Assembly (NCBI GenBank): GCA_030726065.1
Contig: JANREK010000038.1
Span: 1-64,000 of the forward strand
DNA from: Sediminibacterium sp.
GTDB lineage: Bacteria > Bacteroidota > Bacteroidia > Chitinophagales > Chitinophagaceae
DNA: 64,000 bases
Direction of reading: 5' to 3'
Made by a program: the position numbers and the translations under genes. Numbering within the stretch: position 1 is the stretch's first letter; each line of letters starts with the position of its first letter. This document shows, in pieces, positions 61,111 to 62,783 of this stretch. The notes beneath the pieces are model-generated. The model made no database searches and had not been told where the DNA came from. It was given only the letters and a program-made list of their open reading frames with translations.

Positions 61111-61355
61111 AATTATTACATTTAGTAACTAAATAGCAAACAGGATACCAAAGCTAAAATACTGCCAAGCTGTCAAGTCACATGCCTAAATAAATAACAA
61201 GTACCCTACTAATTTACAACCTAGCTCAGATGCCCGGATTGACCTAATCTATTGTAAATCAATAATATACAGAAGCTCTACCTTAACCGAGCAGAACGGA
61301 AAATACCAGGGCTACCCCAAAAGAACCTGGAATGGGGATCAATTTAACTTAGGTT

Positions 61356-61369
61356 ATAGTGATCACTAT
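61356..61369. repeat. 14-bp perfect palindrome upstream of the rpsF promoter
   Basis: ATAGTGATCACTAT reads the same on both strands; a partial copy (CAGTGATACT) follows 3-4 bases later. It is a possible operator about 55 bases ahead of the -7 element. Confidence 0.55.
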
Positions 61370-61422
61370 CCAGCAGTGATACTTTTTAAGGAAAAAAATG
61401 ACGAAAAACCTTTAAAATAGCC

Positions 61423-61430
61423 TACCTTCG
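61423..61430 (+). promoter_or_regulatory. Putative -7 element of the rpsF-rpsR-rplI operon
   Basis: TACCTTCG has one mismatch to TAnnTTTG and would give a leader of about 83 bases. Confidence 0.4.
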
Positions 61431-61438
61431 CCCACCCA

Positions 61439-61474
61439 AATCTGTTTTGGCAGATTCGTTCCGAGCAATCGGAA
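61439..61474 (+). promoter_or_regulatory. Tandem hairpins in the rpsF leader
   Basis: AATCTG-TTTTGG-CAGATT (6-bp stem) is followed two bases later by TTCCGA-GCAA-TCGGAA, a 6-bp stem with a GNRA tetraloop. They sit in the leader of the S6/S18/L9 operon. In other phyla the S6:S18 complex binds its own leader, so an autoregulatory role is plausible but unproven. Confidence 0.45.
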
Positions 61475-61518
61475 TGTCCACTGGGAAAAACCAATTATTT
61501 AATCAATAAATTCAAGTA

Positions 61519-61872
61519 ATGAACAATTACGAATTAATGGTGATTTTTACACCGGTTTTATCTGAAGATGATTTTAAATCAGCTCAGAAAAAATACCAAG
61601 ACTTCATCCAAGAAAATGGTGGGTCTGCAGTAGCCTCAAATCCTTGGGGTTTAAAATCACTTGCTTATCCAATCGATAAGAAAACTACTGGTATCTACTG
61701 GATACTAGAATTTACTGCTCCTTCGACAGTAAATGAAAAATTGAAAATTCAATTTTTACGTGACGAGCAAATCATGCGTCACATGATTACCAAACTTGAC
61801 AAGAACGCAGTTGAGTATAACCACATTAAGAGAAACGGCGGTTTCCCTGTTCACAATGCAGTTGAGGCTTAA
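61519..61872 (+). CDS. rpsF: 30S ribosomal protein S6
   Basis: 117 residues. The opening MNNYELMVIFTPVLSEDD and the ferredoxin-like fold segments NPWGLKSLAYPIDKKTTGIYWILEFTA and FLRDEQIMRHMITKLDK are S6. It dimerises with S18 on the 30S platform. First gene of the rpsF-rpsR-rplI operon; the 5' leader carries two hairpins. No Shine-Dalgarno sequence precedes the ATG (AATTCAAGTA), normal for this phylum. Confidence 0.97.
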   Translation: MNNYELMVIFTPVLSEDDFKSAQKKYQDFIQENGGSAVASNPWGLKSLAYPIDKKTTGIYWILEFTAPSTVNEKLKIQFLRDEQIMRHMITKLDKNAVEYNHIKRNGGFPVHNAVEA

Positions 61873-61888
61873 TTAAATTTTTACCAAC

Positions 61889-62152
61889 ATGGCAAAGAAT
61901 GAAATAAAATACCTTACAGCGATTAAGCAGGAAAAACCAAAGAAGAAATTCTGTCGTTTTAAAAAGTATGGTATCAAGTATGTCGATTACAAAGACATCG
62001 ATTTTTTAAAGAAATTTTTAAATGAGCAAGGTAAAATGTTACCTCGTCGTTTAAGCGGTAATTCATTAAAGTACCAACGCAAGGTGGCTGACGCTATTAA
62101 GAAGTCACGCCAAATGGCATTGTTACCTTATGTAACCGATTTATTCAAATAA
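61889..62152 (+). CDS. rpsR: 30S ribosomal protein S18
   Basis: 87 residues. [65 protein letters not shown] is a complete S18 core. The single cysteine in FCRF is retained, so this is not a cluster-ligand (C+) four-Cys paralogue. In Flavobacterium ribosomes S18, S6 and S21 help hide the anti-Shine-Dalgarno sequence, which fits the start-site pattern in this window. It starts 16 bases after rpsF. Confidence 0.97.
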
Positions 62153-62248
62153 ACCACTAATTAGTAAACCATCCCTAATCTCGTATATTAAAAATATATT
62201 GGCGAGTGACAGCAAAATTGCTGGGCTCTTGGGAACTAAAAAAAATAT

Positions 62249-62698
62249 ATGCAAATTATATTAATCAAAGACGTAGATAATTTAGGAGGCAAGGACGAAT
62301 TAGTAACTGTTAAAAACGGTTATGCGCGTAACTTCTTATTCCCTACCAAACAAGCTGTTGAAGCAAGCACTTCTAATTTGAAACAATTGGAAGAGCGTTT
62401 AAAAGCAAAAGCGAAGAAAGAAGCTGCAATGTTAGCTGAGATTACAAAAGTAATTTTAGTATTAACTTCATCTCCGATCAAGTTGACTGCTAAAACAGGA
62501 ACCTCAAATAAAATATTTGGTACCATCACCTCATTTCAAGTTACGCGTGCAATTCGTGAACAAAAAGGTTACGAAATTGATAGAAGACGTATTAGCTTAC
62601 CAGAGGAAATCAAAGAATTAGGAAGCTACAAAGCAACTATTGACTTTGGAAATGGACAAAATACTGAAGTAGATATTGAGGTTGGTGCTGAGGCTTAA
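62249..62698 (+). CDS. rplI: 50S ribosomal protein L9
   Basis: 149 residues. The N-terminal globular domain IILIKDVDNLGGKDELVTVKNGYARNFLFPTKQAVEA has the L9 signature, then the long connecting helix (NLKQLEERLKAKAKKEAAML) and the C-terminal domain ending in YKATIDFGNGQNTEVDIEV. It binds 23S rRNA near the L1 stalk. Separated from rpsR by 96 bases containing a small AGCAA/TTGCT hairpin but no clear terminator. A strong terminator follows. Confidence 0.97.
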   Translation: MQIILIKDVDNLGGKDELVTVKNGYARNFLFPTKQAVEASTSNLKQLEERLKAKAKKEAAMLAEITKVILVLTSSPIKLTAKTGTSNKIFGTITSFQVTRAIREQKGYEIDRRRISLPEEIKELGSYKATIDFGNGQNTEVDIEVGAEA

Positions 62699-62750
62699 TT
62701 GCCCCCAACCCCAATTTCCAGCCTAAAATGAACTTCATTTAAGGCCAAAA

Positions 62751-62783
62751 AAGCCTTCCCATACCCTTGGGAAGGTTTTTTTT
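62751..62783 (+). terminator. Rho-independent terminator of the ribosomal-protein operon
   Basis: CCTTCCCA pairs with TGGGAAGG (8 bp, extendable through a G-T and two A-T pairs) around TACCCT, followed directly by eight Ts. Confidence 0.9.

Follow-up and report, generated by a model that had tools for sequence, protein, structure and literature searches.

The leader of rpsO, the gene for ribosomal protein S15, carries a pseudoknot near the start of the ribosomal protein gene and mediates feedback by the encoded protein. bL9 is a non-essential fidelity protein, and we know of no L9 leader family. The canonical S6:S18 leader motif was reportedly described by Matelska (2013) and Fu (2014). Control of rpsO is treated in PMC8470358. 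In E. coli, the canonical S6:S18 leader conceals the Shine-Dalgarno sequence; the C's of its bulge are the counterparts of C719 and C720 of 16S rRNA, which contact S18, and regulation through the leader is abolished when these C's are changed (PMC4647458). All known S6:S18 leaders precede rpsF (PMC4647458, PMC7247131), and no proteins other than S6 and S18, acting together, are known to work through a leader at this place or have been proposed to do so (PMC4647458, PMC7247131, PMC10931766). In Bacteroidota, translation proceeds without Shine-Dalgarno pairing, and the anti-Shine-Dalgarno is kept in a pocket of bS21, bS18, and bS6, the proteins that hold the 3' tail of 16S rRNA in Bacteroidia (PMC9976891). 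In Pseudomonas, L9 represses exsA mRNA; the N-terminal domain of L9 has been mapped just 5' of position 2231 of 23S rRNA (PMC8730436).

Here, we analyze the rpsF-rpsR-rplI operon of a Sediminibacterium sp. in a 64,000-nucleotide stretch of DNA (contig JANREK010000038.1, assembly GCA_030726065.1), referred to below as the window. This work establishes how the rpsF leader folds, that the fold is conserved, and that the leader occupies a constant position before rpsF. The best explanation of the data, and one that we consider likely, is that a conserved, pseudoknotted rpsF leader serves S6:S18 feedback, with rplI being set separately by a second RNA.

Results

The operon and its genome

The first-pass annotation had called the genes as rpsF, rpsR, and rplI, and all three calls were borne out by Pfam. 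On the forward strand, rpsF (bS6; 61519-61872; PF01250) is followed by rpsR (bS18; 61889-62152; PF01084) and rplI (bL9; 62249-62698; PF01281 and PF03948), with an intrinsic terminator 3' of rplI (62747-62782). No Shine-Dalgarno sequence is present at the rpsF start. The source assembly is 2.0 Mb in size, 95% complete, and lacks 16S rRNA; the closest relatives of the genome are freshwater Chitinophagaceae near Sediminibacterium.

Structure of the rpsF leader

The leader RNA (61435-61494, forward strand) is a three-way junction of helices P1, P2, and P3, with a 3' bulge and a pseudoknot. The closing stem, P1, pairs CCCA (61435-61438), located at the predicted mRNA 5' end, with UGGG (61482-61485); both strands were obtained in the minimum free energy fold and in the covariation alignments. 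P2 is the hairpin AAUCUG-UUUUGG-CAGAUU (61439-61456), with both-side changes in four of its six pairs, and P3 is the hairpin CGUUCCGA-GCAA-UCGGAAUG (61457-61476), with both-side changes in all eight. The bulge UCCAC (61477-61481), whose CC is the proposed bS18 contact, lies between P3 and P1. The pseudoknot is formed by UUGG in the P2 loop (61447-61450) and CCAA in the tail after P1 (61491-61494), two strands that covary with one another. Minimum free energy folding of 61435-61521 yielded the junction unguided (-21.2 kcal/mol, z = -3.3 versus shuffles). Two short hairpins, one with a GCAA loop, had been reported for the leader in the first-pass annotation. Both are real, corresponding to P2 and P3, but they are only parts of a larger fold; the annotated interval, 61356-61474, ends short of the 3' half of P1 and of the pseudoknot strand. 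The reading as two independent hairpins was given up in favor of a single, pseudoknotted junction closed by a stem.

The leader is devoid of an intrinsic terminator, the only strong one being that after rplI. Transcription attenuation, a mode known for some ribosomal protein leaders (PMC4538822), was rejected on the grounds of this missing terminator, and we consider it highly improbable at this locus.

Compensatory changes were observed in every helix across ca. 150 distinct leaders, though in P1 only slightly. In an alignment of 17 ungapped leaders (A1), both-side changes affected 8 of 18 pairs, and the covariation score was 0.244, compared to 0.132 in shuffled alignments. Two larger alignments were made by fitting to a covariance model, which biases them towards the model and from which A1 is free. 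They contained 15 pairs with both-side changes among 90 leaders (A3; 96% of cells paired, score 0.349 versus 0.115 shuffled) and 13 such pairs among 99 leaders (A4; 94% of cells paired, score 0.494 versus 0.141 shuffled). Covariance of related rpsF leaders had been proposed as a check in the first-pass annotation, and the structure passed it clearly: whichever alignment was used, the observed score was reached by 0 of 500 shuffles. Sliding the partner by a single column decreased pairing from 94-98% to ca. 36-51%. P2 was paired in 100% of cells. P1 was paired in 97-99% and showed a compensatory AU to UA change in one leader (L104), but it is short and nearly invariant, and its own covariation support is therefore slight. 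All helices were also kept in a very divergent leader (L232) located before an rpsF start, in which P1 and P2 differ, P3 and UCCA are kept, and the knot consists of five pairs (AUUGG:CCAAU).

Loop and tail of the pseudoknot were found to vary jointly, the variants being UUGG:CCAA (or CCAU or CAA on the tail side), UUCG:CGAA, AUCG:CGAU, UCGG:CCGA, and AGG:CCU. Among 80 distinct loop-tail combinations, the match was missing in only two, both with a rebuilt P2 loop, and a few had three pairs. When the changes were mapped by eye onto a small protein-based S6+S18+L9 tree (FastTree, branch support unshown), the switch from UUGG:CCAA to UUCG:CGAA appeared once, basal to a large clade; AUCG:CGAU had arisen twice, at separate points of the tree, and UCGG:CCGA at a further one. 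In a permutation of whole loops and tails, four or more pairs were present in 90% of the observed combinations versus 59% of the shuffled ones, a difference blurred by runs of U facing runs of A, so the motif table together with the tree is the better evidence for the pseudoknot.

The promoter and the 5' end of the mRNA

A -7 promoter box of the Bacteroidota TAnnTTTG type, TACCTTCG, is located at 61423-61430 on the forward strand, and in 140 of 147 distinct leaders the box ends exactly 4 nt before CCCA. In Flavobacterium psychrophilum, the TAnnTTTG box occupies positions -12 to -5 (PMC9723704); by this spacing, P1 starts at +1 (ca. 61435) or no more than two bases away from it. The rpsF mRNA is predicted, from this start site, to begin with closing stem P1.

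The CC of the 3' bulge is present in every one of the 147 distinct leaders; its 3' neighbor is A in 135 of them and G in 12, and the fourth position is free. This bears on a reading in which the leader is a protective or standby structure that acts at the 5' terminus without a ligand, either shielding the mRNA end from decay or offering an A/U-rich tail to the 30S subunit. Such a role fits the start of P1, which coincides with the predicted +1 in almost every leader, and the short hairpins at the same place in other Bacteroidia (L309, L310, L317). A simple hairpin would be enough for it, however, and neither the invariant bulge CC nor a knot maintained through several double changes would be explained. 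We therefore regard a ligand-free structure as an unlikely account of the leader.

Upstream of the promoter, ca. 55 bp 5' of the box, lies a perfect 14-bp palindrome, ATAGTGATCACTAT (61356-61369), which the first-pass annotation had grouped with the leader hairpins. From its perfection and position, it could be an operator at which a DNA-binding protein regulates the operon. Perfect 14-mer palindromes occur in the window at chance level, however (11 observed versus 8.2 expected from dinucleotide shuffles), and this one was kept in 0 of 67 relatives carrying the same codons. It is contained in the 3' remnant of a 5'-truncated Exo_endo_phos_3 gene (61190-61420, forward strand; PF19580, profile positions 262-309 of 311), which comprises 76 codons (61190-61417) and a stop, lies outside the leader, and has the palindrome in its last codons (..GYSDHYP..). 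At the same place in close relatives, the nuclease gene is mostly intact, with a product of 340-400 aa ending in ..GYSDHFPVALIFK... The remnant adjoins htpG, which is on the other strand. The operator reading was rejected because of the comparison with relatives, the chance frequency, and the nuclease coding origin, and we give it next to no credence. Judging from these sequences, we conclude that the palindrome is a chance product of the SDHYP codons; present and perfect as it is, it forms no part of the leader.

Distribution and classification of the rpsF leader

A covariance model, R1, was built from the 17 ungapped leaders, with E-values from a short calibration. Each of 80 relatives gave a single R1 match, located just 5' of rpsF, and the 308 kb searched contained no further ones. 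Matches were found in 105 of 399 Chitinophagaceae genomes (ca. 101 of them above 42 bits), representing ca. 30 of 104 genera, and strong matches (at least 60 bits) were confined to Chitinophagaceae among 395 genomes across class Bacteroidia. Of the weak matches (ca. 25-32 bits), those without an rpsF start (L231, L233-L235) were read as chance, and L232 as genuine. In other Chitinophagales and Bacteroidia, the rpsF leaders sampled were short and lacked the motif. The leader is thus missing from most Chitinophagaceae and from the other Bacteroidia sampled, which indicates that any control it exerts is dispensable.

Three Chitinophagaceae leaders (L114, L130, L131), inspected by eye, lack P2 but have the closing stem, one hairpin, and, in the 3' bulge, either UCCA or ACCA. 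This suggests that P2 and the knot were added later onto a simpler core leader. In four loci from other Bacteroidia (L309, L310, L317, L322), the predicted rpsF transcription start coincides with a very short GC hairpin. In Chitinophagaceae without the leader (L115, L120, L122, L124), either CAGGGTAATG or CAGGGATCATG is common to the rpsF starts.

The Rfam model RF02893 (RpsF_leader, threshold 37 bits) had no match in the window (E<=5), in 8 relatives (E<=1), or in 20 short loci (E<=10); a positive control, the E. coli leader L082, scored 110 bits. Among 14 control genomes, the model found E. coli only and missed B. subtilis, and so it tests the gammaproteobacterial form and says nothing on the wider class. 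By its architecture, the leader is a putative variant of the S6:S18 leader type, not a proven member.

E. coli bS18 contacts RNA through K60, R61, and R63; the bS18 encoded in the window has K, K, and R at these positions. In the 16S rRNA of 23 genomes, the CC is fixed and the next base (721) is C, A, T, or G; in these 23 genomes, no correlation was observed between base 721 and the third base (CCR) of the leader bulge. The likeness to 16S rRNA is thus restricted to the essential CC, and the mimicry is weak.

S6:S18 feedback is the best reading of the leader in view of its place upstream of rpsF-rpsR, the retained bS18 contact residues, and the CC that never varies in the 3' bulge; S6 and S18 probably shut off their own production through the leader. 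S6:S18 autoregulation had been raised in the first-pass annotation and holds as this best reading, with the palindrome left out of it. A different ligand, such as bS21, bL9, free 30S subunits, a small RNA, or a metabolite, might be sensed instead: the assignment to S6:S18 comes from operon position and the CC bulge only, and in Bacteroidia bS21 sits beside bS6 and bS18 on the platform (PMC9976891). The known leaders before rpsF, however, bind or are assigned to S6:S18 (PMC4647458, PMC7247131), and strong matches, where checked, occur once per genome and before rpsF only. We consider another ligand to be rather improbable, even slightly more so than a ligand-free structure.

A second structured RNA between rpsR and rplI

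RNAalifold and covariation revealed a second structured RNA, a candidate L9 leader, at 62161-62239 on the forward strand. It has outer stems UUAGU/ACUAA and UCCC/GGGA, a variable hairpin (62180-62207), and a hairpin GACAGC..GCUGGG (62208-62225). In sets of 32 and 55 distinct sequences, 96-97% of cells were paired and covariation was strong; the set of 32 had been chosen by a pattern fixing UUAGU and ACUAA, the set of 55 had not. On its own, the window sequence folded mildly better than shuffles (z = -1.8). The corresponding model, R3, matched 76 of 229 Chitinophagaceae genomes (39 of 104 genera) with one match each, and wherever positions were compared, the match occupied the rpsR-rplI gap, and this was so also in genomes that lack the rpsF leader. 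There was no other R3 match in 227 genomes of the class and no Rfam match for 62161-62239.

When the element before rplI is absent, the gap between rpsR and rplI is short and often contains an AGGAGG-like sequence (L288, L300, L318, L330, L338). Shine-Dalgarno sequences are rarely used in Bacteroidota, and such gap sequences are thus unusual for the phylum.

The second RNA in part resembles 23S rRNA at the L9 site. In a genome of the same genus, 23S rRNA reads CCUAAUCCCUAACGGGAGACAGU..ACUGGGG, and the leaders before rplI read CCUAAUCCCGA..UCGGGAGACAGU..ACUGGGC. The arrangement CUAA-hairpin-GACAGU..ACUGGG was found in the 23S rRNA of two relatives (G172, G186), within E. coli positions 2202-2252; in two others (G194, G268), GACAGU is one base off, so the copy is inexact in two of four relatives. 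The strict 23S motif occurred in 3 of 4000 shuffled 23S sequences, a frequency that is not an unbiased p-value, the motif having been picked after the likeness was seen. A gapped local alignment of the second RNA with 23S rRNA showed no significance, the variable loops being responsible. In the simplest reading of this likeness, the second RNA would be a leader that mimics rRNA and serves feedback by L9, and we propose it as a candidate. No earlier report of an RNA before rplI was found in the literature searched. If the reading is true, this RNA is the first feedback element proposed for bL9, as far as the literature search reached.

Discussion

S6:S18 feedback at this locus could operate as follows. 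Free bS6:bS18, when in excess of 16S rRNA sites, would bind as a dimer to the bulge and the P3 and P1 stems, as at C719-C720. The bound dimer would lock the pseudoknotted fold, with the knot holding the tail. Since the knot ends 24 nt before the AUG and no Shine-Dalgarno sequence is present, repression would be by blocked 30S loading, not by Shine-Dalgarno hiding: the 3' end of the locked fold would lie at the edge of the 30S footprint. rpsR would be repressed along with rpsF through coupling, and the level of rplI would be set apart by the second RNA (62161-62239), probably via bL9. The Chitinophagaceae leader, being unable to hide a Shine-Dalgarno sequence, provides a test case for ribosomal protein feedback without one.

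We put at about even the chances of a broader claim, namely, that two feedback RNAs of separate evolutionary origin are present in this operon: an S6:S18 leader with a pseudoknot, specific to part of Chitinophagaceae, and the first bL9 leader, which copies the L9 site of 23S rRNA. If this is true, rplI, the last gene, can be set independently of rpsF and rpsR. Control of bS6 and bS18 levels bears on start-site choice in Bacteroidota because both proteins line the anti-Shine-Dalgarno pocket. A link to start-site choice had been drawn in the first-pass annotation; it is a fair remark for the phylum (PMC9976891) and is not tied here to the rpsF leader.

The rpsF leader shares with the widespread S6:S18 leader (S6S18CBM) its position before rpsF in an operon with rpsR. 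Like the known leader (PMC10931766; compare E. coli L082 1537-1621), it has a closing stem, a hairpin, and a CC-bearing 3' bulge between them. It differs from S6S18CBM in having P2, a conserved additional hairpin located 5' in the junction, and a pseudoknot that joins the P2 loop to the tail, and in a bulge that reads mostly CCA instead of CCG. Its P1, moreover, is a 4-bp stem at the mRNA 5' end that does not pair a Shine-Dalgarno sequence, and the leader has no Rfam match. The S6:S18 leader of Chlorobi (Eckert and Weinberg 2020; PMC7247131) is likewise lineage-restricted, located before rpsF, and assigned to S6:S18 by operon position, without a clear likeness to 16S rRNA; it belongs to another phylum, and the main text of that report does not mention a pseudoknot. 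With the rpsO leader, the rpsF leader has in common a pseudoknot near a ribosomal protein start, but the gene and the protein are different, and here the knot ends 24 nt before the AUG and there is no use of a Shine-Dalgarno sequence. As for the second RNA, the candidate action of L9 on an mRNA leader recalls the exsA case in Pseudomonas (PMC8730436). Unlike the exsA target, which bears no likeness to 23S rRNA, the second RNA is 23S-like in part and precedes rplI itself.
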